Shown here: positions 9,574 through 59,687 of the stretch, piece by piece
Position numbering within the stretch: position 1 is the stretch's first letter
Layout of the letters: each line of letters opens with the position of its first letter
Assembly: GCF_000340565.2 (NCBI RefSeq)
Contig: NZ_CP007203.1
Span: 3,630,378 to 3,690,064 of the forward strand
Source of the DNA: Nodularia spumigena CCY9414
GTDB taxonomy: Bacteria > Cyanobacteriota > Cyanobacteriia > Cyanobacteriales > Nostocaceae
DNA: 59,687 bases
Reading direction: 5' to 3'
The notes under the pieces: model-generated
Seen by the model: only the letters and a program-made list of their open reading frames with translations
Database searches by the model: none
Told to the model about the DNA's origin: nothing
Program-made: the position numbers and the translations under genes

Positions 9574-10845
9574 ATGAAAGTCAAGCGCCTAAAAATGCAA
9601 TCCTTCCGTGGAATCGGCGATTTGACGTTGGATTTTAATCAAAATGAACCAACAATACTTATTGGTATTAACGGTGTAGGTAAATCGAGTATTATTGAGT
9701 GTCTCGCTATTCTTTTGTCACGTTTTACTAGCTCTATTCAACACTCTACGCCTTCAGGAAGACTCTTTACAGAAGAAGATATTACTAATGGAGAGAAGGA
9801 AACACATAACGAGGTTAATATTTCATTTGATTCTGAAGAAATAACATGGTCTTTGACAAAAGTCAAAAAAGGACGTAATAAAGATACTAGCAGTAACCTA
9901 TCAGCTATGACAAAGGTTGCTGAAAATATAAAAGAAAACTTACATATATCTCATATATTTAATATTCCTATTGTAGTTTATTACTCGACGAATCGTGCAG
10001 TTTTAGATATTCCATTAAAGATTCGGACAAAGCATTCATTTGAACAAATAGATGCCTATGAAAATGCCCTGACAGGAAACGCAATTACTGGATTAGGAAG
10101 TGAGTTTAGAATTTTCTTTGAATGGTTTAGAAGACAAGAAGATTTAGAGAATGAATTGCGTCTAGAAAATAATGCTGCTTATAGGGATAAGCAATTAGAA
10201 GCTGTGAGACAAGCCATATCTTCACTGATTCCAGATTTTTCTAACTTACGGGTACGGCGTTCTCCCTTAAGAATGACTTTACAAAAACAAGGCGAAGAAC
10301 TTATAGTTAATCAGCTATCTGATGGTGAGAAATGCTTGCTGGCAATGGTGGGAGATTTAGCTAGACGTTTAGCAATTGCTAATCCTGGTTTACCTGACCC
10401 ATTGCAAGGTAGTGGTATTATTTTAATTGATGAAATTGAACTGCATTTACACCCTAAATGGCAAAGAGGAATTATTCCAGATTTAACAAGAACATTTCCT
10501 AATTGTCAATTTATTGTTACTACTCATTCCCCCCAAGTAATTAGTGATGTGAAACCAGAAGGAATTTATCTTTTAGAAAAAACAGATCAAGGTGTTATCG
10601 CCAAACAACCAGAAAGTTCCTTTGGGAGAGATAGCAATCGTATTTTAGAAGACTTGATGGATGTTCCTGAACGTCCACAGGAAATTAAAGACAGTCTTTT
10701 AGAACTGTTTAGAATGATTGATGCCGGTAATTTGGAAAGTGCTAGGAATTTACGTCAACAGTTAGCGAATGAAATTGGAATAGATGAACCAGAGTTTGTG
10801 AAAGCAGATGTACTCATCCGACGCAAGGAAATTCTCAATCGATGA
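9574..10845 (+). CDS. ptuA: AAA/ABC-type ATPase, PtuA-like (Septu defence module)
   Basis: The 423-aa ATPase has SMC/RecF-like motifs: Walker A GINGVGKSS (31-39), an ABC signature LSDGEKCLLAM (about 248-258), Walker B GIILIDEIELHLHP (281-294) and the switch His in VTTHSPQ (His318). It overlaps the next gene, a TIGR02646-type HNH protein, by the 4-bp ATGA junction. An ABC-like ATPase of this size coupled to such an HNH protein is the composition of the Septu anti-phage system, where PtuA forms a complex with PtuB and controls its nuclease. The symbol is assigned from this pairing. An alternative is the effector part of a retron, but no reverse transcriptase is nearby. Confidence 0.85.
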   Translation: MKVKRLKMQSFRGIGDLTLDFNQNEPTILIGINGVGKSSIIECLAILLSRFTSSIQHSTPSGRLFTEEDITNGEKETHNEVNISFDSEEITWSLTKVKKGRNKDTSSNLSAMTKVAENIKENLHISHIFNIPIVVYYSTNRAVLDIPLKIRTKHSFEQIDAYENALTGNAITGLGSEFRIFFEWFRRQEDLENELRLENNAAYRDKQLEAVRQAISSLIPDFSNLRVRRSPLRMTLQKQGEELIVNQLSDGEKCLLAMVGDLARRLAIANPGLPDPLQGSGIILIDEIELHLHPKWQRGIIPDLTRTFPNCQFIVTTHSPQVISDVKPEGIYLLEKTDQGVIAKQPESSFGRDSNRILEDLMDVPERPQEIKDSLLELFRMIDAGNLESARNLRQQLANEIGIDEPEFVKADVLIRRKEILNR

Positions 10846-11492
10846 AGTATATCAAAAAAAATCGGGAGCCAGAAAAGTTTTCTAGTTGGAAAGCTTTAGA
10901 AAATGATGATTGGAAGCCTAGCTGGGATGATAATTTTCAAGCACCAGAAAAACAGATTGTACATGATGCTTTGCTACAAGAACAGGGTTATATCTGTTGC
11001 TATTGCGGAATGCGTATCACTAGAAAAAATAGCCATATAGAACATCTTCAGCCTCGCAGTGCTTATCCACAGTTGGCGCTGGAGTACACAAATTTTATTG
11101 CTTCATGTCAAGGAGAAAGTGAAGAACCTCCTCCTATTCCAGTACATTGTGGACATCAGAAAAAATATTGGTACGATGAGCGTTTAATGGTTTCGCCTCT
11201 GGAAATCAACTGTGCTGATTTTTTTCACTACCCTGCTTCTGGGGAAATTTTGCCAACAGATGATTCAGGTAAAAAAGCTGCTGCTGAAACAACAATTGAG
11301 AAGCTTGCACTTAACATTAACAAGCTGCAAAATATGCGAAAACTAGCAATCGATGCTACATTATTAGGTATTGAAGATTTAACTGATGCAGAAATACAGC
11401 AACTTGCTCAAGGTTATGAGGAAATGGATTCTAATGGGCAATATACGCCGTTTTCTGCGGCAATTATCTATTTACTCAAGAATTATTTTTAA
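10842..11492 (+). CDS. ptuB: HNH endonuclease, PtuB-like (TIGR02646 family)
   Basis: This is a 216-aa HNH nuclease of the family found as the second gene of Septu and of Septu-coupled retrons. Visible features are the zinc ligands CCYCG (52-56), the catalytic core HIEHLQPRS (65-73), YTNFIASC (82-89), and a distal HCGH (102-105), in the spacing typical of TIGR02646 proteins. The ATG overlaps the ATPase stop codon (ATGA), which implies translational coupling and matched amounts. In known systems PtuB cuts nucleic acid when the ATPase is triggered during phage infection; that role here is inferred from family and gene order. Confidence 0.85.
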   Translation: MKYIKKNREPEKFSSWKALENDDWKPSWDDNFQAPEKQIVHDALLQEQGYICCYCGMRITRKNSHIEHLQPRSAYPQLALEYTNFIASCQGESEEPPPIPVHCGHQKKYWYDERLMVSPLEINCADFFHYPASGEILPTDDSGKKAAAETTIEKLALNINKLQNMRKLAIDATLLGIEDLTDAEIQQLAQGYEEMDSNGQYTPFSAAIIYLLKNYF

Positions 11493-11600: not shown

Positions 11601-11633
11601 GCGCCTCTGCGCCTCTGCGTGAAATCAATTCAT
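11601..11633. repeat. 3'-end dispersed repeat, copy 1 (at pcrA)
   Basis: GCGCCTCTGCGCCTCTGCGT plus about 13 further bases that differ somewhat from the other copies, placed directly at the 3' end of pcrA. Near-identical copies sit at the 3' ends of the PLD-like gene (32640-32672) and the HDAC-like gene (38763-38795). Confidence 0.8.
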
Positions 11634-13957
11634 TAGTCAACTCTTTGCAACTGCGCTATTCTGGGGTCAACAATTTTCTGTCCCAAACTGGCAAATTTCA
11701 CCGCCACAGACACCTTATTATCTTGTCCGAAGACGTGCGTAATTTCACCTATACCAAAGGATTTATGTAAGACGCGATCGCCTACTTGCCAATTATGGGG
11801 TGTATAAGGCTTACCGCCAGCCTTAGCAGCAGTTTTCGTCTGCGTATGACGACCTTTATTCCGCGTATTTAATAGTTCTTCTGGTAATTCGTCCAGAAAT
11901 TGCGATCGCATCGCCGGTTCACGTGAACCATACAAACGGCGTTCACGAGCGTGTGATATATATAACCGTTCTTGGGCGCGAGTAATCCCCACATAACACA
12001 AACGGCGTTCCTCTTCTAAGGACTCTGGGTTATTGATAGAACGGTAATTGGGAAATAATCCCTGTTCCAAACCCACCAAAAAGACTACGGGAAATTCCAG
12101 ACCTTTGGAAGAGTGCAGAGTCATTAAAGATACAGCTTTTTGTCCGTCCTTTAAATTATCTAAATCCGAACTGAGGGCGCTACTTTGCAGAAAAGCTGTG
12201 AGAGAAACGTCTTCGCTTTCTTCTTGAAATTGCAGTACGGCGTTGTAAAGTTCTTGGACGTTCTGAATTCGATCTTCGGCTTCATCTGTACCTTGATTTT
12301 GCAAGTCTTGAATATAACCAGACTCATTTAACAGTTCTTGTAAAAGTTCGGAAACTGGAACCCTTGCGGCTTGTGCTTTGCAGGTGTTGATCATTTTAGC
12401 AAAGTTATTCACAGCTTTAGCCGAACGTCCAGCTAAGGTATTAACTGATGTTTCATCGCTGAGTATTTCCCACAGGGGTGTCCCCAACTCATAGGAGGCG
12501 TTAACTAAGCTTTCAATGGTGGCTTTACCAATTCCGCGCCGGGGAGTATTGATAACTCGTAATAAACTGACTGTATCAGCAGGATTAGCGATCGCTCGTA
12601 AATAAGCTATGATATCTTTAATTTCTTTGCGATCGTAAAACTTCATTCCTCCCACCACTGTATAAGGAATTTGATACCTGACTAACAATTCCTCAAAAGG
12701 TCGTGATTGGGCGTTAGTACGATAAAGTATGGCAAAGCTACCCCAGTCTAACTCAGGATTTTGCTGTGCTAAATTGCGAATTTGCCCAATCACAAACTCA
12801 GCTTCCTCAATTTCATTATCTGCTTTATGACAATAAATCTGCTCACCGCTTCCCCGCGTCGGTTTGAGAACCTTATCAATGCGTTGAGTATTATTTTCAA
12901 TTAACTCATTAGCTGCTTGCAAAATATTCTCACAAGAGCGATAATTTTCCTCTAGCTTCACCATCGAGCGGGTATCATCATCAGCTAAACCATCGCCAAA
13001 GTCTTGCTGAAATTCCAATAATATGGTAACATCAGCCATTCGGAAACTGTAAATCGACTGATCCGCATCACCCACCACAAACACAGAGCGATTTTGCCAT
13101 TCCCATGCACTCTTGCTTTCTTCGCCATTAGTCACCAACAGCCGAATTAAATCATACTGGGTGCGGTTAGTATCTTGATATTCATCTACCAGGATATGGT
13201 TAAACTTGCGATGCCAATAATCTAAAACCTGGTCATTTTGCTGAAATAATCTGGTAGGGACGAGAATTAAATCATCAAAATCGAGAGCGTTATTTTCTGC
13301 TAACTTTTCCTGATAGCAATTATAAACTTGGGCGATGACTCTTCCCCGATAATTCGGCTGTTCGCGCTCGAACTCCTGGGGTGAAAAGCCTTGGTTTTTG
13401 GCGTTACTGATGGCGTAGCGCACAGAACGAGCATCAAATTTTTTATCGTCTAAATTTAGCTGCTTATTAACAATTTCTTTCATCAGACTGATCACATCGG
13501 ATTCGTCAAAAATCGAGAAATTGCGAGTCCAACGTCTGCCTTTTTCGTCTTGGTATTTGTCGATATCAAACCGGAGAATTTTAGAGAATAAACTGTGAAA
13601 AGTGCCACACCACAAGTCTTTGATGGTATTTTTGTAGACTTGCGATCGCAACTGCATTTGCTGGTATTCTGTCAACAAATCAAATTTTTGACCATGTTTT
13701 TTCATCGCCAAATCTTCACCAAACAGCCTTTGAATGCGTTCCTTCATTTCCCGTGCGGCTTTGTTCGTGAAGGTAACAGCCAGGATATGCTCAGGATATA
13801 CACCGTGTTTGAGAATCAGATTAGCAATACGATAAGTCAGCGCTCGTGTTTTCCCCGAACCCGCGCCAGCAACAACTAACAAAGGACCGCAGTAATGTTC
13901 GACAGCTTGACGTTGGCTGGGGTTGAGATGGCTGAGAAAATCAATAGTTGTTGTCAT
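11633..13957 (-). CDS. pcrA: ATP-dependent DNA helicase PcrA/UvrD
   Basis: This superfamily 1A 3'-5' helicase acts in DNA repair, replication restart and clearing protein from DNA. The 774-aa protein shows the Q-motif region LNPSQRQAVEH, Walker A GAGSGKTRAL (31-40), VDEYQDTN (motif II), QSIYSFRMAD (motif III), LEENYRS (motif IV), LMTLHSSKGLEFPVVFLVG (motif V) and YVGITRAQERLYISHA (motif VI). The C-terminus has the small tudor-like PcrA domain (WQVGDRVLHKSFGIGEI). Length and order match the cyanobacterial/Gram-positive PcrA type. It is a single gene. Its stop codon lies at the edge of a dispersed GCGCCTCTGC repeat. Confidence 0.96.
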   Translation of the reverse strand: MTTTIDFLSHLNPSQRQAVEHYCGPLLVVAGAGSGKTRALTYRIANLILKHGVYPEHILAVTFTNKAAREMKERIQRLFGEDLAMKKHGQKFDLLTEYQQMQLRSQVYKNTIKDLWCGTFHSLFSKILRFDIDKYQDEKGRRWTRNFSIFDESDVISLMKEIVNKQLNLDDKKFDARSVRYAISNAKNQGFSPQEFEREQPNYRGRVIAQVYNCYQEKLAENNALDFDDLILVPTRLFQQNDQVLDYWHRKFNHILVDEYQDTNRTQYDLIRLLVTNGEESKSAWEWQNRSVFVVGDADQSIYSFRMADVTILLEFQQDFGDGLADDDTRSMVKLEENYRSCENILQAANELIENNTQRIDKVLKPTRGSGEQIYCHKADNEIEEAEFVIGQIRNLAQQNPELDWGSFAILYRTNAQSRPFEELLVRYQIPYTVVGGMKFYDRKEIKDIIAYLRAIANPADTVSLLRVINTPRRGIGKATIESLVNASYELGTPLWEILSDETSVNTLAGRSAKAVNNFAKMINTCKAQAARVPVSELLQELLNESGYIQDLQNQGTDEAEDRIQNVQELYNAVLQFQEESEDVSLTAFLQSSALSSDLDNLKDGQKAVSLMTLHSSKGLEFPVVFLVGLEQGLFPNYRSINNPESLEEERRLCYVGITRAQERLYISHARERRLYGSREPAMRSQFLDELPEELLNTRNKGRHTQTKTAAKAGGKPYTPHNWQVGDRVLHKSFGIGEITHVFGQDNKVSVAVKFASLGQKIVDPRIAQLQRVD

Positions 13958-31351: not shown

Positions 31352-32491
31352 TTAAGCTATCACAGAAGAACACAATTTGTTTTCTAGTTCAACTTCCCGT
31401 TCTGCAGTCGCCACAATCGCCTGAGTGATCACACGCTGAGAGTCAAAACCGACTGAGTGGAGTTGTAACCACTGTTGGGCTTCATTACCTGCGCGGAGAA
31501 TTTTCTGCAAAGGAGACAGGAAACAGCTAAAACCGTGTTGTTTAGCGATCGCCCAAACATCTTGATATATTTCAGCAATCCAATCTCTAGCCAGGATAGT
31601 TCTACCATCTTGCCAATGAATCAATTGAGCATCAAGACTAGCAGTAGCTGCGGCTGTTTCATTCTGGGCGGTGAGAGCAAGTAATTCTTCAGGAGAGAAA
31701 GTGCTTTGAGTTAAAGGATCGAGGTCAGGGTTTTCGATTAACTGCAACAAACGGGCTTCTAGGAAGGCTGAAATAGCTAGTAAAGCAATAGGATCGGAAA
31801 CCAAGTCACAAATGCGTAATTCCAGGCGATTCAGGTCATGAGGACGGCGATCGCCATTTGGTCTTACCGATGTCCATAAATGGCGGACATTTTGCATAGT
31901 TCCCGCCGCTATTTGTGCCTCCACCCATTGAATATGATGGGCGTGGCTGGTAAATAAAGGTACATGGGCGGGAGTTTGGGGAAACACAGCCCAACGGCTG
32001 GAATGATAACCGGTAGCATTACCATCCAGGAAAGGAGAGGAAGCACTCAAAGCCAAAAATAAAGGAGCTTCTAAACGAATCAACCGACAAGCCCGCATTA
32101 ATACTTCTGGGTCACTGATACCGATATTAATATGAACACTGGCAGTAACTACCTGCGTCCCGTAGGTATGTTCAATATAGTCATGATAAGGGTTATCGGG
32201 GTTAGAACGAAAAAAGCGATCGCTGCCACCCAAAGACAAAGTGCTACCTGGAATCAGAGTATAATTACTCAAACTTTCGAGGTAGCTGCGTAACTTTCGC
32301 CGGGGACGTAACAAAGCACACAATAAGTTCTCGTATTTATGCAATGGGTCTGTGATGTATTCCACATTGCGGCTATCCGGTTCCCGCACAAACCCATCCA
32401 AAGAAGCCACAATTTTGTCAGAGAGACCGACTATTTCACCTTGAGGCGTACCAGTATACATCTCAATCTCGAAGCCTTTTAATAGGACCAC
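31352..32491 (-). CDS. gshA: Glutamate--cysteine ligase, cyanobacterial type
   Basis: This catalyses the first and rate-limiting step of glutathione synthesis, joining glutamate and cysteine with ATP. The 379-aa protein matches the cyanobacterial GshA family (TIGR02048-like): the N-terminal KGFEIEMYTGTPQGEIVGLS, the central GSDRFFRSNPDNPYHDYIE and VTASVHINIGISDP, and the RPNGDRRPHDLNRLELRICD segment. The cysteine-ligase fold is shared with plant-type and carboxylate-amine ligases, but these motifs fit the cyanobacterial subgroup. It stands alone; the defence-like pair lies upstream on the same strand after 172 bp. Confidence 0.92.
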   Translation of the reverse strand: MVLLKGFEIEMYTGTPQGEIVGLSDKIVASLDGFVREPDSRNVEYITDPLHKYENLLCALLRPRRKLRSYLESLSNYTLIPGSTLSLGGSDRFFRSNPDNPYHDYIEHTYGTQVVTASVHINIGISDPEVLMRACRLIRLEAPLFLALSASSPFLDGNATGYHSSRWAVFPQTPAHVPLFTSHAHHIQWVEAQIAAGTMQNVRHLWTSVRPNGDRRPHDLNRLELRICDLVSDPIALLAISAFLEARLLQLIENPDLDPLTQSTFSPEELLALTAQNETAAATASLDAQLIHWQDGRTILARDWIAEIYQDVWAIAKQHGFSCFLSPLQKILRAGNEAQQWLQLHSVGFDSQRVITQAIVATAEREVELENKLCSSVIA

Positions 32492-32639: not shown

Positions 32640-32672
32640 GCGCCTCTGCGCCTCTGCGTGACACTAATCCAT
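32640..32672. repeat. 3'-end dispersed repeat, copy 2 (left of the helicase/PLD pair)
   Basis: A 33-bp unit beginning GCGCCTCTGCGCCTCTGCGT, which contains the stop codon of the PLD-like gene. It differs at one position from the copy at 38763-38795, so the 6-kb two-gene cassette lies between direct repeats. Confidence 0.85.
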
Positions 32673-34445
32673 ATTTCCCCTCCTCTTCCTTGGAGGTTTA
32701 CTTTGTGGTAAAATAAACTTATCGCGCGAATCATGCTCCTGAGCAATCTTAAGACGGATAAAATCTGCCCACACTTGCTCATTAAGTAAGCTTAAAGCAA
32801 ATTCAGGTTGAACAGATGCGATCGCCTGAATAACTTTCCGGCATTCCTGCTGTAACTCATCAATAAAAGCTGACTCCCCAGAAAGCTGACTCAGCAGAGA
32901 AAGTGCAGTAGTGAAATTTATCGAATCATCTATAATTTTTTGTGACATTAAATCGTGAAATACGATATTCAGCCACACCGGGAGAAGTTCCAACCAGTTA
33001 CTTTCTTCTATTTGCTGAAGTGCGATATTTTGCATATTCAGCGCCCCCCAAATGCACAAAGCTTCAGCAGCTAATTGAAAATCGCGTTTTTCCAAAGCAA
33101 TATTCCATTGCTTTTCGGCATGATTTTGGCAACCATGAGCCAGAAATTGATATGCTTCGGCTACTTGTTGGGGAATAGTAACCTGATAAACAGACTCACC
33201 ACAAGGTAAATTTTCGCCACCACAAGAAACCCAATCAAAAAATCCATAAAAATGAATTTTTTGGTCAACTATAACTTCTTTAACATGAGAATTTCCCAAA
33301 CATAAAAATTGTACCGAGGGTAAACCATGAGGCGTTTTGATAGCGCGGAGTTTTTTTTCTACATCTGCTGCTTCTGGCGAAATTCCATATCCAATTAAAA
33401 TCCACACACCGCTATTAGCTAACTTTTGCAACAGCTTAAAAAAATCTTTATTAAAAACAGCCTGACTCAACCAAGGACAGTAGATGATAATTTGACGTTT
33501 TGCAGAATTTAAAACCTCTTCAAAAACGGTAATAACTTCAGCATCGCGTAACTTTAGAGCTTCCTGGCTAAATTTTTCTAGCCTAGATTCTATTTCGGCA
33601 TTTTTATATTTTCGAGTAGCTTCACGCTCCAAATAGATGGCTTCATGGGACAATTTGCATAAAGATTGCCAAGGTATTTTACCTTTACCTTGCAACACTT
33701 CCATGCGTTTGGATGCGGAGGCTAAAATTTGCTTACCGTTTCTGATTTGGATACTTAATTTATCTTCCCTAGCATCACCAATTACAAACAAAGAGATATT
33801 TTTCCAAATTATTTGCGCTGGGGCGATAACCTTACAGCTAGTCACAATTTTGCCGATTTCGGGTACATGAAAATCTAAACCTGACAACTGAATACATTTT
33901 TGTAACTTCTCAATTGATAAAGCAGATATATCATTAATCTTGCGAGCAATCTTGATAAATTCGGCTAAATCAGGTAAATTTAAAGGAGCATCATTTAATG
34001 GTTCAGCATGAAATGTTAGCTTTCCATCTAAAGCATCGGAAACAGCATATATTTGGATAGGATAGGGAAGCTGTGGTACAGAACCTTTGGCGTAAAAAGT
34101 TCGTCCTTCATCTGTAACTGTAATTGGCGATGTTGCGGATAAAGTTTGTAACGCTTGCAAATTTGCAGTTGTACTGCGAACAAATATAGAATCAAGTCCT
34201 AATATAGATGCTAATTCATCTTCTGTGGGTGGAGGTGTAAATTCAATTCCAGCGCGGATAATAAATTCTTCGAGTACGTTAAATTCGCGTGGTTCCTTAA
34301 TAGATAATTCTACAGGAGTTTGATGCAAACTATAACGAAATTCCCTAGCGGCTAAAACTGACAAATTGGGATTTTGCGCGGTAATTTCCTCTGCTAAATT
34401 TATGAGTTTGTCGTCAATAGGTTTAGCCGCAGCAGCGAGAAACAT
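32664..34445 (-). CDS. Phospholipase-D-like protein paired with an SF1 helicase
   Basis: The product (593 aa from the ATG at 34445; a TTG lies one codon earlier) is not a close match to any named family I know. Residues about 60-125 look like a winged-helix or adaptor module. Residues about 305-430 form a PLD domain with one full HxK-x4-D motif (NSHVKEVIVD: His388, Lys390, Asp395 counted from the TTG) followed by YGFFDWVS, where canonical enzymes have GS-x-N. One such motif suggests action as a dimer. The C-terminal 150 residues are helical. It overlaps the helicase 3' end by 23 bp, so the two are translationally coupled. Nuclease activity in defence is inferred. Confidence 0.82.
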   Translation of the reverse strand: MFLAAAAKPIDDKLINLAEEITAQNPNLSVLAAREFRYSLHQTPVELSIKEPREFNVLEEFIIRAGIEFTPPPTEDELASILGLDSIFVRSTTANLQALQTLSATSPITVTDEGRTFYAKGSVPQLPYPIQIYAVSDALDGKLTFHAEPLNDAPLNLPDLAEFIKIARKINDISALSIEKLQKCIQLSGLDFHVPEIGKIVTSCKVIAPAQIIWKNISLFVIGDAREDKLSIQIRNGKQILASASKRMEVLQGKGKIPWQSLCKLSHEAIYLEREATRKYKNAEIESRLEKFSQEALKLRDAEVITVFEEVLNSAKRQIIIYCPWLSQAVFNKDFFKLLQKLANSGVWILIGYGISPEAADVEKKLRAIKTPHGLPSVQFLCLGNSHVKEVIVDQKIHFYGFFDWVSCGGENLPCGESVYQVTIPQQVAEAYQFLAHGCQNHAEKQWNIALEKRDFQLAAEALCIWGALNMQNIALQQIEESNWLELLPVWLNIVFHDLMSQKIIDDSINFTTALSLLSQLSGESAFIDELQQECRKVIQAIASVQPEFALSLLNEQVWADFIRLKIAQEHDSRDKFILPQSKPPRKRRGNMD

Positions 34446-37400
34446 CAACGAAACCTCCTTGACTATCTACAGTATGAGAAATTTCTAAATACATACCTCC
34501 AACTGTTCCCCCTTGGCGGGTAAATAAATCGTGACAACCGACAATTACCAGTAATTCTTGGGCGCGAGAAAACGCCACATTTACTCGTTCTGGTTTTTTG
34601 GCAAAACCGACATCGCCTTGATGATTATTTCGCACCATACTTACTATGACCACAGCGCGTTCCATTCCCTGAAATCTATCAACAGTACCCGTGCGAATTT
34701 CCAAGGAAGGAAAAAGTTCAGGTTGTAAACGTTCGTCAATTCTTTTCAATTGTGCGCCATAAAATGTAATTACGGCAATTTCCTTTTTGGGTTCCCCATT
34801 GGCAATTTTAGCAGCCCAAGTATGCTCAAATTGCTGACAGAGGTTTTCAATGACATCAATTTCACGAGGATTAAAATAAGAAGTATTTTCCCGTTCTTCT
34901 TGAAATTCATCTTCTCTGGGCATTTTTACCCAAACAAGATGGTGATTTTCTTGGATAATTTCACCTGTTAAATTATGGGCGCGTTGGGTGTCAGGTTCCA
35001 AAAGTCCACATTCTAGTTTACCCTGATAGAACTGATTAATCGCCCCCATAATAAAGGGGTGCATTCTATATTGTGTATTCAGCATTTGTTTGACGCTTTT
35101 ATCCGCAGCTTCAAACTGAATTTTAAATAACGATTCTTCTAAAAATTGCAGTTCGGATTTTGTACTTCCCAGTGATTGCGCCACTTCTTCCACTGTGCTA
35201 CTATCAAGCATAGGTGGTAATTGTCGATGGTCGCCTACTAAGACTAATTTTTTGCCTTTTAAAGCGGGGATAAGTAACTCTGGTGGAGTACATTTACTAA
35301 CTTCATCGATGATAACGACATCAAAGGCTTTAAATTCTTGGGAAAAGTTGTAATTTGCAGCTTGTACGCAAGTGATACCGACGACGTTGGCGTTATCTAA
35401 ATAAATGCGTCTTAAATCGTTGCGATCGCGCTCGGAGGGATTTTTAACTTTGGCAATCCAATCTTTGGTAAAATCCTGATATCGGCTGAGATAAGTTTCC
35501 TCTTCCGTGAGTTGATTTCGCCAAACATCAAACTGGTTTTTTACCCTGAGTAAAAATTCCAGGTTAAATAAATCTGGATGGATATCTGCTGGCTGAAATT
35601 TATCAGGTATGGTTTGGCAGAAATTTTCCCACCAATTTCTTGATAAAATTAAATCTTCCGTTGGCTGTATCTCTGGTTGCTTATCTAATTTCTTGATTTG
35701 GGCTTGGATTTTCTTGAGTTCTTTTTGAGCAAGTGTATTTTCTTGTTCTATAATTGTGACTTGCTCATCTAAAGACGTTTTGATATTTTCTAAGACTGCG
35801 AAAGGTGTAATTGATGAAATTAAACTTTCCAAATTGCTAAGATGAGATACCCCAGCACTTACCTGAGTTGCAAATTCTGAAGAATGTTCCCAAATTTTTG
35901 ATTGCGTTGTCAGATACTCTGTAACTAAAGCCCGTAATTTATCCGGGACATTTTGCTGCTGGTTCAGTAATTGCAAAATCTCGATAATCTGTGCTAGCTT
36001 GATATTTGCTGCTTCGACTTGAGAAGACGTAGCAGATATTTGTGCTTGAGTCGTTCTCTGTTTTTCAAGTTCAATTAATTGCTGCCCGAAAGACTCAAGC
36101 TGTTGTTCAGTTTCAGTCTTAACTCGTGCGATACATTGACGCGCATTTGTGAGGATGTTGGTGAGTAAGTCTTCACTAACTTGTTTCAAAGTCGCGTCGA
36201 GATTATTTAACTCCCAGACTTTACTATATACTGTTTGCATTCTCAGCAAAAACAACTGAGTATTTTCCAGCAGTAATGAGCGCTGATGTGGGTTGAGGAG
36301 TTGATAATTTTTGAACTCTTCATATATTTTACGCCATTGAGTGCGATCGCTCGCCGATAGCACAATAGGAATTTGACTAAAATTTTGCTCTAAAAAGTAA
36401 CTGAAATGATATTGTTTACCGATTCTATCAATAAAGCCGCCTTCTGTCTCATATATCAAAGCCTTGTCTAAAGCTTTCCAGTCTGGTAAATGTATTTGAT
36501 ATTTTTTAGGTAATATAGTCAACTTTAATTGATTAGCAAACATCAACAAACCCAGTGGCAATTGTACCAACTCTTCCGTTAATGTTTGTCCTGATTGCTG
36601 AGATTCCTTAACTATTTGATATAATACCACAGGTGCAGTAGATTTCCATTCCTTAATAGCTGCAATTACATAATCAATTTCCCGTTGACGATTTTGCCAA
36701 CCTTGAATTGTTTGTTGTAAAATTTGTCGTAGGCTGAGAAACTCCTGTTCATCGATTTCTGGTGAATTCAGATTTTGAGAATTTTGGGGAATAGCCGATA
36801 CCGCTTTTGCAACTTCCGACATGACTAAAATAGCATCTTGGGCGTAACCGAATGCTAGTTTAAAATCAGCAATTTTATCAGCCACATCTTCACGCAACCA
36901 AACAGCTAAACCAAAAGCACCATAAGGAGGACGCACTAAACCAAGTTCATCAGTATAATGAATAGCTTCTTGAACATGGGTTAAAAAATCTTGGACGACA
37001 ATATTATTTTCTGTATAAGGCTGAAGATAGGGTAGACAATTTGTAACTTCTGGCGCTTCCCAATTAATCTGCGGTGCATTTTTCAGGAGATAATCTAAAC
37101 CTAACTGAATTGATTCTACCTGATTTTTCCGAGTTAAACCTTCCTGATAAATTGCTGATTGAATTTTACAGTCTGCTGCTAAAGTTTCCTTTTCCTGATT
37201 TAATTGATTCTGTTGCTGATTTCGTTCTAATTCTAAGTTAAAATAATCTGTAAATCGTGGTAACTCTGCCAATAATTTTCCCAAAAATCTCACATTTTCC
37301 AGACGTTTAGCCAAACTACTTTCACAGTCAGTCGCCGTATTTTCCAACCAAGTCTCAATAACTTGGTCTTCTAAAAATGGCTGTCCTTCCTCCCCGACTC

Positions 37401-38649
37401 TCTCAGCGCGTCCTTTACGAACAGCCCGAATAACAGGGTTGTGAACTAACCGACTTAAAGCATTATCCACAGCTAAATTAGCTTGAGAAGCGATGAGAGT
37501 CCGCCCACCCCGCAAAGCTATTTGATAACAAATTTCAGCAATTACCGTAGTTTTCCCAGTTCCCGGCGGTCCTTGAATCAGAATTAAATCCTCAGCAGCT
37601 AACACCTTTTCCACTGCGGCTTTTTGTCCAGCATTAGCAGAAGATAATAACAAATCATCCGCTTTGAGTTCCACAGTTTTCTTCATCCGTCTAGCTTGGG
37701 AAGCGTCGAATAAAAAGTTACCCAAATAAGGATTTTGAGTATTTCCATGCTTTAATTGTTCTAAAGCTTCCTTCTTCCGGCGAACTTGTTGAATATCACC
37801 TGCTGCGTCAAAAAATAAAAATCCCTTCACGGGTGGCTGATAACGTTGTGTAGCGATATATTCAGCTAATTCCCGTTCTACTTTCACCTTAATTAAACAA
37901 TTTTTCGGGTCAACTTTTTCAATTGAACCAAACTTAGGAATTTTATGAGTAAAATTTCCCGTCGGAACAGTATCCGAAAGCTTCACTTCTTGATTCTTTG
38001 AACGTTTCACCCGTTCCCAGAAACTAGAGACCTTTAAATAATTTTGTTCAGAACCATCAAGAGTAGCCGAATTAACATCTACTTCAAAAGTAATTTGTCT
38101 GGTATTATTGCCATAATCATTACCCACAAAAGCCACACAAAACTGACGCGCCTTAGCGATATTTTCCTCAACTTGCAAAAAAGCCTTCCAAGCTTGCAAT
38201 TGGTCTTCAGTCGGTATATGATCACCACAGACTGGCATCTTTTCCACACGTGCCAATGCTGCTTTCGGAATACCTAAACGATGTTTATCATGAGGTAGGA
38301 GACGCAAAGAAAAAGGAACAGAATAACCATCAGCGTGTCCCCGTGAAACTTGTAATAAACGAGTAGATAAAACTTTTAACCCGCCACGCCCATCTTCTTG
38401 AATAGCAGCGATTAAACCTAAAGTTTTACCTTGCTTTTCCAACGTTACAGGTAAAGGAAAATCATCTCTATCAGTTGCGATTGTTAACTGCCAAATTTCC
38501 TCATTTTGGTGTTTTCCTGCACCTTGACGACGCACATAAAACAGACAAACTTGATCACCCAATAAATCTATTATCTCATCCTTCGCCACTGCTCCAACAC
38601 ATTTATAGCTCCAGTCTTGGAAATTACGGTTGTTAGAAAAAGTGGGCAT
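34423..38649 (-). CDS. Large superfamily 1 helicase (COG1112/Upf1-like), Mokosh-like
   Basis: The 1408-aa helicase is split by a huge helical insert. The N-terminus (1-330) is beta-rich and of unknown fold, with no kinase motifs. The first RecA core starts with Walker A GPPGTGKT (360-367) and motif Ia (LIASQANLAVDNAL). An insert of roughly 650 residues is largely coiled coil. Then come Walker B VVIIDEVSKCTPPELL, motif III VLVGDHRQLPPML, NTQYRMHP (motif IV), GTVDRFQGME (motif V) and NVAFSRAQELLVIVG (motif VI). This is the COG1112/Upf1-like branch. Pairing with a PLD-like protein is the composition of Mokosh anti-phage systems, in which helicase and PLD are separate (type I, with a kinase) or fused (type II). 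Confidence 0.88.
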   Translation of the reverse strand: MPTFSNNRNFQDWSYKCVGAVAKDEIIDLLGDQVCLFYVRRQGAGKHQNEEIWQLTIATDRDDFPLPVTLEKQGKTLGLIAAIQEDGRGGLKVLSTRLLQVSRGHADGYSVPFSLRLLPHDKHRLGIPKAALARVEKMPVCGDHIPTEDQLQAWKAFLQVEENIAKARQFCVAFVGNDYGNNTRQITFEVDVNSATLDGSEQNYLKVSSFWERVKRSKNQEVKLSDTVPTGNFTHKIPKFGSIEKVDPKNCLIKVKVERELAEYIATQRYQPPVKGFLFFDAAGDIQQVRRKKEALEQLKHGNTQNPYLGNFLFDASQARRMKKTVELKADDLLLSSANAGQKAAVEKVLAAEDLILIQGPPGTGKTTVIAEICYQIALRGGRTLIASQANLAVDNALSRLVHNPVIRAVRKGRAERVGEEGQPFLEDQVIETWLENTATDCESSLAKRLENVRFLGKLLAELPRFTDYFNLELERNQQQNQLNQEKETLAADCKIQSAIYQEGLTRKNQVESIQLGLDYLLKNAPQINWEAPEVTNCLPYLQPYTENNIVVQDFLTHVQEAIHYTDELGLVRPPYGAFGLAVWLREDVADKIADFKLAFGYAQDAILVMSEVAKAVSAIPQNSQNLNSPEIDEQEFLSLRQILQQTIQGWQNRQREIDYVIAAIKEWKSTAPVVLYQIVKESQQSGQTLTEELVQLPLGLLMFANQLKLTILPKKYQIHLPDWKALDKALIYETEGGFIDRIGKQYHFSYFLEQNFSQIPIVLSASDRTQWRKIYEEFKNYQLLNPHQRSLLLENTQLFLLRMQTVYSKVWELNNLDATLKQVSEDLLTNILTNARQCIARVKTETEQQLESFGQQLIELEKQRTTQAQISATSSQVEAANIKLAQIIEILQLLNQQQNVPDKLRALVTEYLTTQSKIWEHSSEFATQVSAGVSHLSNLESLISSITPFAVLENIKTSLDEQVTIIEQENTLAQKELKKIQAQIKKLDKQPEIQPTEDLILSRNWWENFCQTIPDKFQPADIHPDLFNLEFLLRVKNQFDVWRNQLTEEETYLSRYQDFTKDWIAKVKNPSERDRNDLRRIYLDNANVVGITCVQAANYNFSQEFKAFDVVIIDEVSKCTPPELLIPALKGKKLVLVGDHRQLPPMLDSSTVEEVAQSLGSTKSELQFLEESLFKIQFEAADKSVKQMLNTQYRMHPFIMGAINQFYQGKLECGLLEPDTQRAHNLTGEIIQENHHLVWVKMPREDEFQEERENTSYFNPREIDVIENLCQQFEHTWAAKIANGEPKKEIAVITFYGAQLKRIDERLQPELFPSLEIRTGTVDRFQGMERAVVIVSMVRNNHQGDVGFAKKPERVNVAFSRAQELLVIVGCHDLFTRQGGTVGGMYLEISHTVDSQGGFVDVSRCCG

Positions 38650-38762: not shown

Positions 38763-38795
38763 GCGCCTCTGCGCCTCTGCGTGACACTAATTCAT
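38763..38795. repeat. 3'-end dispersed repeat, copy 3 (right of the helicase/PLD pair)
   Basis: A 33-bp unit overlapping the stop codon of the HDAC-like gene, identical to the 32640-32672 copy except for one base. The orientation is the same, making a direct repeat pair about 6.1 kb apart. Confidence 0.85.
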
Positions 38796-39724
38796 AACCT
38801 ATATTGATGATAAACCTGACTAGCCGCGCGATGCAGCAAAGAATGTCGCCAAACCAGAGACTTCATATCATCAGCGTACCCCCCACCGATAACACAAGCC
38901 ACAGGATAACCAGCAGCCACACAGGTGCTTAAAACCTGCATTTCCCGGAGAAAGATCCCCGTATCACTCAAAGCCAATTTTCCCAAGCGATCGCCTATAT
39001 GAGGATCTACCCCGGCATCGTATAATACTAAATCAGGCTGAATATGGGATAACAAATCTGGTAAATAATTCGCCAAAGTTTGCAAATAAGCATCATCCTC
39101 CATACCCACCGTTAGGGGAACATCCAAATCACTGGTTTGTTTAGTACCCGGAAAATTAACTTCACAGTGCATAGAAAAAGTAAATACACTGTCATCTCCT
39201 TGAAAAATAACAGCCGTACCATCTCCTTGATGCACATCCAAATCGACAATTAGAATATTCTGCACAAGTCCCAATTTTTGTAAGACTCGACAAGCGATCG
39301 CTAAATCATTGAAAATACAAAAACCAGAACCATAACTAGGAAAAGCATGATGAGTACCACCAGCCGTATTACAAGCTAACCCTTGACTGAGTGCCATCTG
39401 GGCTGTAAGTATTGTACCACCAACCGCTACACAGGTACGATTTACCAGTTCTGGACTCCAAGGTAAACCAATTCGACGCTGTGCTTTCGGTTCTAGTGTT
39501 CCCTCACAGTAAGCCTTCACGTACTCTGAAGTATGCACCAACTCGATTAATTCCGGGGGTGGGCGTTTGGGGGTGTGAAATTGTGCGGTTTGTGCGACAC
39601 CCTCAGCTAACAGTAATTCATAGAGTTTTTCAAACTTCGACATCGGGAAGCGATGCCCCGGCGGTAATGGTGCAATATAATCTGGGTGGTAAATAATTGG
39701 CAATTCCATAATCTTTATTATCAA
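38792..39724 (-). CDS. Histone deacetylase superfamily amidohydrolase
   Basis: This is a zinc-dependent deacetylase of the HDAC/AcuC/acetylpolyamine amidohydrolase superfamily. The 310-aa protein has GGTHHAFPSYGSGFC (tandem active-site His), LIVDLDVHQGDGTA (zinc-binding Asp and His), LYDAGVDPHIGDRLG (zinc Asp) and VIGGGYADD (the transition-state Tyr region). The substrate is unknown: acetylated protein lysines or acetylated polyamines are possible. The natural start is probably the sixth codon (MELPIIYHPDY), since family members begin there. It lies upstream of a repeat and the helicase promoter, with no clear operon partner. Confidence 0.92.
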   Translation of the reverse strand: MIIKIMELPIIYHPDYIAPLPPGHRFPMSKFEKLYELLLAEGVAQTAQFHTPKRPPPELIELVHTSEYVKAYCEGTLEPKAQRRIGLPWSPELVNRTCVAVGGTILTAQMALSQGLACNTAGGTHHAFPSYGSGFCIFNDLAIACRVLQKLGLVQNILIVDLDVHQGDGTAVIFQGDDSVFTFSMHCEVNFPGTKQTSDLDVPLTVGMEDDAYLQTLANYLPDLLSHIQPDLVLYDAGVDPHIGDRLGKLALSDTGIFLREMQVLSTCVAAGYPVACVIGGGYADDMKSLVWRHSLLHRAASQVYHQYRL

Positions 39725-58808: not shown

Positions 58809-59216
58809 ATGGGGTCAAGGTTAAGGATATTCCTGACAAAAAAACAAGATAGAGAGTTGTTTGACCTGAGAACAGCGAAAGTACCGCAGAAAGTAAAAGA
58901 TAGAGCTGAAGTAATCAGATTAAATGCAGATGGTTGGTATGTGGAAAAAATAGCGGCTCACTTTGATTGGGGAGAGCAAACAGTAAGAGTCGTGTTGAAT
59001 AAGTGGGAAAAAGAAGGAATAGAAGGACTCCATGAGTTACCAGGTCGAGGGAGAAAGCCAAAATTGGTGGAAGCTGACATTGAATATTTAGAAAAATGCT
59101 TGAAAGAAGAAGCACAAACTTATAACAGTAAGCAATTAGCAGAAAAACTGGATAAAGAGCGTGGGATAAAAGTAAGTACCAACACAATCAGACGGGGACT
59201 AAAAAAAAAGGGGTGA
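58809..59216 (+). CDS. IS630-type transposase, HTH part (orfA)
   Basis: The 135-aa product contains two helix-turn-helix modules, as in the N-terminus of IS630 transposases: DRAEVIRLNADGWYVEKIAA with FDWGEQTVRVVLNKW, then the linker RGRKPKL and a second module (NSKQLAEKLDKERGIKVSTN). It ends in RRGLKKKG and a stop (59214-59216) within an A9-GGGG tract (59201-59213). A -1 shift on this tract would read KKKGVIWKR and enter orfB, giving one full transposase. Shift on poly-A is well known in this family. Confidence 0.9.
   Translation: MGSRLRIFLTKKQDRELFDLRTAKVPQKVKDRAEVIRLNADGWYVEKIAAHFDWGEQTVRVVLNKWEKEGIEGLHELPGRGRKPKLVEADIEYLEKCLKEEAQTYNSKQLAEKLDKERGIKVSTNTIRRGLKKKG
59201..59209 (+). promoter_or_regulatory. 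Poly-A slippery site for -1 frameshifting
   Basis: Nine consecutive A residues precede GGGG and the orfA stop. In the orfA frame it reads CTA AAA AAA AAG GGG TGA; one step back it reads AAA AAA AAA GGG GTG ATT TGG, opening orfB. An A AAA AAA heptamer is the classic bacterial -1 slippery site. Confidence 0.75.
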
Positions 59217-59687
59217 TTTGGAAGCGGATAAGAATAAGTCATCAAGCAAAACAAGATCCAGTGACTCGTGCAAATAAACAAGCAGATATGGATATGTTAG
59301 AACTGGCTGCGGCTAGTGGAGAAATAGACCTAAAATATTTGGATGAATCAGGATTTTCAGCTTGGAGTGATTCAGGTTATACATACTATCAAAAAGGAGA
59401 ACAAAAAAAGCTCGAACAAACAAAAAGACGTGGACGCAGAATCAGTATTATTGGGCTATTTCAGCCATTAATTAGCTTTATTTATGGTCTAGTAATTGGA
59501 GGAGTTAAGCGCAGTTCTTACATCAAAATGATGGAACAAGAGGCGCAAGAAGCATCTGAAAGTAAACGAATGAGAGTCATAGTTCAAGATAATGGACCAA
59601 TACATTGTTGTAAAGAAGTTCAGGCATTATGGACAAAGTGGGAACAAATGGGTTTATATATGTTTTTCCTTCCTAAATATTGCTCGG
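59210..59687 (+). CDS. IS630-type transposase, DDE part (orfB), partial
   Basis: The frame continues from the -1 shift (GVIWKRIRISHQAKQDP) to the window edge with no stop. It holds the first catalytic Asp in KYLDESGFSAWSD and the second in VIVQDNGPIHCC. The final acidic residue of the DDE/D triad is past the end. It has no ribosome site or start codon of its own that is convincing, so it is likely expressed only by frameshifting. The left 5' limit is approximate. Confidence 0.85.

Follow-up and report, generated by a model that had tools for sequence, protein, structure and literature searches.

The chromosome of the cyanobacterium Nodularia spumigena CCY9414 (contig NZ_CP007203.1, a single contig of 5,462,271 bases) encodes a superfamily 1 (SF1) helicase and, downstream of it, a partner protein with a phospholipase D (PLD)-like domain. 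The two genes are encoded on the minus strand of the 59,687-nucleotide stretch analysed here (positions 3,630,378 to 3,690,064, referred to as the window). Comparison of the two proteins with their relatives suggests that the pair is probably a Mokosh-related helicase-adaptor chassis, native to its order and equipped with an exchangeable, dispensable effector, and that the effector of the window copy has probably been weakened. The homology of the proteins, their patchy distribution and the type of effector suggest that the pair likely protects against phages or plasmids. More tentatively, we envisage a chassis of helicase and winged-helix adaptor with interchangeable effectors, whose effector-free form has a function of its own and which a module in common with RecG may direct to forks or recombination intermediates. 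The parts of the pair are located in the window as follows.

34423..38649, minus strand: SF1 (UPF1/SMUBP-2-like) helicase, 1408 amino acids (open reading frame, ORF; PADLOC MkoA; Pfam AAA_11/AAA_12; PDB relatives)
37660..38580, minus strand: N-terminal region specific to the clade, helicase residues 24-330, without a kinase (Pfam and profile searches)
37549..37572, minus strand: Walker A motif GPPGTGKT, helicase residues 360-367 (sequence and clade alignment)
36235..36486, minus strand: RecG N-terminal-type module in the helicase insert, residues 722-805 (40% identity to the genome's own RecG)
35296..35307, minus strand: motif II, DEVS, helicase residues 1115-1118 (sequence and clade alignment)
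34423..34445, minus strand: overlap between helicase and partner genes, 23 bp counted from ATG 34445 (ORF)
32664..34448, minus strand: MkoB-related partner, 594 amino acids from TTG at 34448, alternative ATG at 34445 (ORF; PADLOC MkoB)
33594..34448, minus strand: constant, winged-helix-like adaptor region of the partner, residues 1-285 (comparison of relatives)
33114..33566, minus strand: PLD-like domain of the partner, residues 295-445, swapped or lost in relatives (comparison of relatives; Pfam PLDc_2 in L063 and L297)
33264..33287, minus strand: HVKEVIVD (HxKx4D), partner residues 388-395 in the 594-residue numbering (sequence)
33234..33245, minus strand: GFFD where the family has G-S-x-N, partner residues 402-405 (alignment of PLD partners)

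The helicase with its GPPGTGKT and DEVS motifs, the 23-bp overlap and the HxKx4D motif of the partner had all been noted in a sequence-only reading of the window, and each was located; the overlap holds from ATG 34445 and becomes 26 bp from TTG 34448. Walker A and DEVS are kept in 39/39 clade helicases, QYRMHP and GTVDxFQG in 38 and VNVAFSRA in 36, one of the 39 (L087) being a split ORF. The insert between the RecA domains, earlier put at about 650 residues, proved shorter: the stretch between the RecA motifs measures about 560-600 residues and includes the 84-residue RecG-type module.

Mokosh systems of type I consist of MkoA, a helicase with a Ser/Thr kinase domain at its N-terminus, and an adjacent MkoB with a PLD, and in type II the helicase and the PLD are fused in one protein. 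With the PADLOC hidden Markov models alone, without the system rules of PADLOC or DefenseFinder on coverage and synteny, the window helicase matched MkoA at 1.6e-114 (PDLC03920) and 3.7e-104, limited to the helicase core, and the partner matched MkoB (PDLC03922) at 9.8e-23, limited to residues 46-397. The two proteins also resembled the two ends of MkoC (helicase, 9.1e-34; PLD of the partner, 1e-07), and the adaptor alone, as found in the PLD-less relative L068, matched the N-terminal half of MkoB (2.3e-7). The best solved relatives of the helicase in a PDB profile search were SMUBP-2, UPF1, NAM7 and DNA2 (4e-36 to 1.7e-31), which places the motor in the UPF1-like group of SF1. A kinase was sought in vain: the best 25 of 43 Pfam matches to residues 1-492 of the window helicase were all to AAA or other P-loop types, and none was found in five of the N-terminal extensions that sister helicases carry.

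Kinase-bearing Mokosh type I coexists with the window clade in the same order, and genome G094 has both. Two such true Mokosh relatives, L100 and L101, contain Pkinase (Pfam, 1.8e-44 and 9.7e-33) and match the whole MkoA profile with 718 and 878 bits, against 382 bits for the window helicase. Like them, the window pair combines an MkoA-type SF1 helicase core with an adjacent MkoB-type partner in the same gene order, and the partner has HxKx4D. Unlike them, the window clade has no kinase, its N-terminus being empty or, in sisters, occupied by a beta-helix-like domain of about 230 residues; GSxN is missing from the window partner, the effector is swapped or lost and the PLD is absent from many relatives. 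In the helicase tree the kinase-bearing MkoA proteins and the window clade stand apart, a placement to be taken with caution in view of the long branches. The resemblance to MkoC does not extend to its architecture, the window proteins being two separate ORFs and a helicase-PLD fusion being found in 0/78 helicases of the tree. The earlier view of the pair as Mokosh-related, kinase-less and split was thus borne out; the claim that it fits neither type needs rephrasing, as we are dealing with a separate clade whose kinase position is empty or beta-helix-like and not just with a Mokosh that has lost its kinase. A literature search of titles and abstract openings, with most subscription papers and preprints outside its coverage, returned neither an effector-swapped or effector-less Mokosh nor a paper on the Mokosh mechanism. 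Hachiman (HamAB), which has an SF2 helicase and a different nuclease, is alike in its sensor-effector logic, and no sequence relation to it is claimed.

The sisters of the kinase-less helicases that carry the N-terminal extension (19 aligned) share an opening motif resembling the first turns of a parallel beta-helix. As a true parallel beta-helix the extension scored weakly (NosD, 0.28, in a PDB profile search), so the label beta-helix-like was kept. Comparison with three host NosD-type proteins gave an hhalign probability of 11.5% (E 0.0026), and no significant Pfam match was present in the five extensions scanned. At L074 and L077 the pair occurs in two tandem copies, in both of which the helicase has the beta-helix-like extension and the partner a PLD, and a gene for 268-273 amino acids lies between them.

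The exchangeability of the effector is evident from the partner proteins. Residues 1-285 are constant, and the C-terminus is a PLD, DarT, an unassigned domain or nothing. The constant part had been described as winged-helix-like at its N-terminus, a description that stands weakly, through Bacillota homologues: HTH_45 was matched at 0.0015 to 0.01 in 4/5 partners tested, in no case reaching the curated cut-off. The PLD-like domain is present in most of the full-length partners that were examined, and Pfam PLDc_2 was recognised in L063 (2.3e-5) and L297 (6.2e-6), just under the curated cut-off. In L098 and L247 the PLD is replaced by DarT (PF14487; 2.3e-18 and 6.7e-21), a family of single-stranded DNA (ssDNA) ADP-ribosyltransferases. 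At L098 (10555-13542) the adaptor-DarT gene is followed by an ADP-ribosylglycohydrolase gene (ADP_ribosyl_GH, PF03747, 1.1e-45), a possible toxin-antidote pair attached to a helicase; no such gene was seen next door at L247. DarTG systems are defined by a DarT domain accompanied by a DarG macrodomain antitoxin. The two relatives share the DarT domain with them and differ in that the toxin is fused to the helicase adaptor and that the sole adjacent antidote candidate is the ADP-ribosylglycohydrolase of L098, not a DarG macrodomain; the window itself has neither part. The swap of a nuclease for DarT hints at exposed ssDNA as the common target. A third C-terminal domain of about 200 residues was found at L097 (5968-7386), L245 (7866-9335) and L248 (7856-9225), the last partner being broken by a stop; its Pfam matches were not above chance, and a PDB search gave nothing useful. 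The profiles of this domain (X3) and of DarT were trained on members that they match. DarT was confirmed independently with Pfam, and X3 rests on the similarity between L097 and L245, from which the profile then picked up L248.

The effector is also frequently missing. The 126 partner matches come from 113 genomes. Intact frames of 281-321 amino acids, too short for a PLD, account for 53 of them (52 genomes); 58 (55 genomes) have at least 530 amino acids, 8 are of intermediate length, 3 are fragmentary and 4 are interrupted by stops. Nineteen of the 53 short partners were fetched, 0/19 of which matched the PLD profile, and the remaining ones were called PLD-less by length. In the tree of 78 helicases (46 with PLD, 22 with none, 2 excised, 2 with DarT, 3 with the unassigned domain and 3 of undefined state), a minimum of 6 changes in PLD presence is needed, or 7 with excised and truncated as separate states; changes in either direction were counted, and five losses with one regain would fit. 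A single clade of all 24 PLD-less rows was rejected in an approximately unbiased test (p 1.3e-59), and so was one of the 17 PLD-less rows outside the Tychonema-type group (p 3.5e-64), on a quick tree with SH-aLRT support only, many unresolved forks and groups defined once the tree was known. The shapes of the deletions differ as well. Some partners are truncated, others have lost the domain by in-frame excision with the C-terminal tail kept (L298/L133, L256; L133 is from Anabaena lutea), and in L242, L243 and L244 the PLD alone is excised and the following domain retained. Both states occur within one genus, with the PLD in G440 and without it in G645. Recombination among partner genes is an alternative to repeated loss of the PLD.

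No PLD remnants were detected by tblastn 3' of the truncated partners at 14 truncated loci, the sole matches among the 17 loci scanned coming from the broken partner of L099. A same-family PLD supplied in trans was dismissed, the 594-residue query having found the short partner alone in 10 PLD-less single-locus genomes (G001, G033, G058, G128, G142, G154, G166, G179, G181 and G191). The ratio of nonsynonymous to synonymous substitution rates (dN/dS) was estimated by the simple Nei-Gojobori method from pairs that share sequences. In 8 effector-less pairs the helicase gave 0.10-0.22 and the adaptor 0.14-0.25; in 8 PLD-bearing pairs the helicase gave 0.08-0.24, the adaptor 0.11-0.41 and the PLD 0.18-0.50. 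On these estimates, helicase and adaptor are under purifying selection even without the effector. Two further loci were noted in passing. At L242 (4385-17213) several unrelated ORFs separate helicase and partner, both intact, and at L300 (G510:C1:4700000-4719000) the entire locus is a pseudogene, with helicase, adaptor and PLD all fragmented.

A simpler explanation, which we consider possible but rather doubtful, is that the window pair is an ordinary active kinase-less Mokosh, in which phage nucleic acid is recognised by the helicase and cut by the PLD. The homology to MkoA and MkoB agrees with it, as do H, K and D, which are intact in 44 of the 45 readable PLD partners, the window included (a 46th is cut by a contig end). 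The second part of the PLD (HKD) nuclease motif, GSxN after HxKx4D, tells a different story. Both parts together are present in 31 of the 45; G-S-x-N is the family consensus in the partner alignment, and L261 has it and lacks K. All four members of the window's clade (L062, L260, L295, L296) have G-F-F/Y-D instead, the window itself reading G-F-F-D; six loci of one other genus have S-A-x-N, and L140, L257 and L258 deviate otherwise. The window partner, moreover, had no Pfam match at E up to 1, and the PLD state has changed repeatedly in close relatives. A helicase-nuclease logic is established for Hachiman, described as a sensor helicase with a separate effector nuclease (PMC12278908), and the PLD dN/dS is below 1 in 8/8 pairs, both of which suit an active enzyme. 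The PLD ratios in the three window-genus pairs are 0.32, 0.41 and 0.50, compared with 0.18-0.44 in five other pairs, the adaptor ratio in the same three pairs being 0.15-0.21. We read the window PLD ratio as mildly raised, as may be expected of an effector losing its edge, which is not proof of inactivity. The GFFD/GFYD sequence, together with the loss of the PLD in close relatives, makes the PLD doubtful as the working effector of the window copy, the role in which the sequence-only reading had cast it.

The insert of the helicase contains a further element. Residues 722-805 align with residues 6-89 of the RecG protein of the same genome (40% identity over 84 amino acids, BLAST E 2e-16), and in RecG this part lies upstream of the wedge domain. 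With the RecG N-terminus as query, the module was recovered at E <1e-3 in 54 of 78 clade helicases and in 0/5 outgroup helicases. It is present in 24/24 PLD-less helicases, and the 24 helicases without it have a PLD (19), the unassigned domain (3) or DarT (2); this association tracks the tree and may reflect descent instead of function. Across 26 genomes (the window's own and 25 relatives) the module was found in the helicase and in RecG-length frames of 817-933 amino acids, with RecG identity confirmed for the protein of the window genome. Two matches were odd, a weak one in G006 and a 281-residue frame in G010. The 84-residue N-terminal module is what cyanobacterial RecG has in common with the helicase insert; a wedge domain and a DEAD-type motor set RecG apart from the helicase, and no further BLAST similarity joins the two proteins. 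N-terminal extensions of RecG have been reported in cyanobacteria and are described as dispensable in Aquifex RecG (PMC7889586). The module was not reported in another helicase in the titles and abstract openings searched.

The distribution of the pair was analysed with a helicase profile (A2, residues 24-440) and an adaptor profile (A3), each of which was matched in 113 of the 388 genomes examined from the order. Both genes were present in 109 of the 117 genomes with either. The adaptor alone was found in G168, G550, G572 and G634 and the helicase alone in G150, G175, G558 and G657; G150, G572 and G657 are incomplete genomes (66, 82 and 55%), and G168 and G550 have broken copies. Full-length matches to the helicase N-terminal region were listed only in the same order (386 phylum genomes), the other orders of the phylum giving matches to the helicase core alone (best 6.4e-19), and the region was weakly matched in some Bacillota. 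The nearest named relative is an uncultured Nodularia metagenome-assembled genome (84% identity over the query, in a scan that may lack the entries closest to the window); Anabaena lutea, Aphanizomenon flos-aquae and Nostoc are among the further named ones.

The pair is flanked by two conserved neighbours.

38792..39724, minus strand: histone deacetylase (HDAC)-family gene, conserved upstream neighbour (Pfam PF00850, 2.7e-58; synteny)
31352..32491, minus strand: gshA, conserved downstream neighbour (NCBIfam TIGR02048, 4.6e-218; synteny)

This position bears on a serious rival, if in our estimate an unlikely one, namely that helicase and adaptor have been domesticated for genome maintenance. 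They would then serve replication, recombination or RNA surveillance, with a vestigial PLD and no part in defence. Within the stretches fetched for the 33 Nostocaceae loci read, both the HDAC-family gene and gshA were near the pair in 21, one flank in 8 and neither in 4, and one flank is kept in two further families (HDAC at L249; gshA at L074 and L077). In G282 (L250/L251) and G414 (L253/L254) the helicase lies beside HDAC and the partner elsewhere (beside gshA in G282), and both are intact. Retention of the two genes where they are apart, the constant position, the RecG-shared module and purifying selection without an effector would all suit a housekeeping role. However, the pair is dispensable. 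At least 20 family members are without it; among the 20 listed, gshA was found in 20 and HDAC in 18 (broken in G629), and the two genes are direct neighbours in 11, with gaps of about 90-1840 bp and, by tblastn, no remnants of the pair in 11/11 of these empty sites. Presence and absence were observed within one genus (g2), the whole locus has become a pseudogene in G510, and effectors are swapped in other lineages, all of which argues against domestication. The possibility that the pair is a universal core gene, named in the sequence-only reading as one that would speak against defence, is argued against by the 113/388 genomes and the clean empty sites. Most simply, the locus is an old, vertically inherited, dispensable insertion and not a mobile defence island.

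That the pair is a relic, its PLD losses and pseudogenes reflecting simple erosion of an unneeded system, is improbable and already disfavoured: the pseudogenised loci of G510 and G168, the broken partners of G550 and G592 and the clean absences fit such decay, but the dN/dS of helicase and adaptor is low in effector-less pairs, the helicase motifs are intact and the in-frame excisions retain the downstream tail.

Related pairs occur beyond cyanobacteria. In 16 Bacillota loci from Planococcaceae, Bacillaceae and related groups, taken from the 21 loci L141-L161 after L142, L148, L152, L158 and L159 had been set aside for their other architecture, a helicase of about 1230-1320 amino acids is accompanied by a partner of 244-305 amino acids without a PLD match. 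The two genes are adjacent in 16/16, and no other gene family is common to more than 7 loci. Homology of these partners to the adaptor is weak (6/16 with the pN1 profile, 3/4 tested with PADLOC MkoB). This distant effector-less pair suggests that the effector-free form may be widespread. In L142, from a Ruminococcus metagenome-assembled genome, an adaptor-type domain without PLD is fused to the end of the helicase (3e-9). At L148, L152, L158, L159, L162 and L165, in diverse bacteria, a related SF1 helicase is followed by genes of about 730-840, 370-495 and 610-625 amino acids, which looks like a separate multi-gene system.

Several observations weigh against the interpretation of the pair as a defence chassis acting on DNA with a weakened effector in the window. 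The locus looks vertically inherited amid housekeeping genes, not placed in a defence island. Among 117 neighbouring proteins from 20 further loci, 19 of which lie outside the window's family, PADLOC models of 66 families were matched at 1e-20, giving some defence-like neighbours and no clear island; the best 25 of these families had 1-3 proteins each, including PD-T4-6-type kinases (2), IetA (1), PDC-S03 (1) and a Cas12f-type protein (1). The adaptor and beta-helix-like profiles found no relatives on viral contigs. DarT is present at 2 loci only, with an ADP-ribosylglycohydrolase gene beside just 1, and the PLD dN/dS of the window genus (0.32-0.50) is below 1, so some constraint remains. Finally, Mokosh is stated to degrade viral transcripts (PMC11291487), which would favour RNA over DNA. 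The helicase profile did find 33 loci on viral contigs, where the similarity is partial and lies around the RecA1 core (best match E 3e-31, 36% identity).

The surroundings of the window pair do not look like the defence islands in which the sequence-only reading proposed to survey homologues; the pair sits between housekeeping genes at a conserved site. The best 25 of 156 PADLOC families matched in the window included Septu, Mokosh and ATPase models, as well as UvrD-like matches to GajB/RTasHel; the latter come from a 774-residue ORF (11633-13957), which was taken as a housekeeping UvrD-like protein and set aside. The only other defence-type pair among these 25 families is a Septu-like one at 9574-11492 on the plus strand, more than 21 kb from the helicase and its partner. 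It encodes a 423-residue ATPase (AAA_21/AAA_15) and a 216-residue protein in which CxxC and His residues occur. PtuA is matched by one window protein (4.8e-169) and PtuB by one (6.2e-78), and these presumably correspond to the ORFs at 9574-11492. At 58809-59687 (plus strand) the sequence resembles, by eye, the start of a transposase with a helix-turn-helix.

For the helicase-adaptor chassis with a dispensable effector, the following mode of action may be proposed. The helicase would load on single strands of nucleic acid, probably of DNA in forks or recombination intermediates, as suggested by the UPF1/DNA2-like motor, the RecG-type module and the occurrence of DarT as an alternative effector. 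The adaptor would dock on the helicase and present an effector that damages what is exposed. In the window lineage a PLD is still encoded and its active site has drifted; the copy would probably have a weakened effector or none and act through the helicase-adaptor core. The nucleic-acid sensor with an effector module, as proposed from the sequence alone, agrees with the exchangeable toxin-like effectors (PLD, DarT) of the relatives, with the PLD being a doubtful effector in the window itself.

The family constitutes a natural series, with a kinase, a beta-helix-like domain or nothing at the N-terminus and a PLD, DarT, an unassigned domain or no effector at the other end, which separates sensor, adaptor and effector without engineering. 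What the helicase senses, and whether it acts alone, is testable with paired natural strains, such as G440 (with PLD) and G645 (without PLD) of the same genus. The repeated removal of the effector, if true, would provide a clear example of an immune module kept without its weapon.

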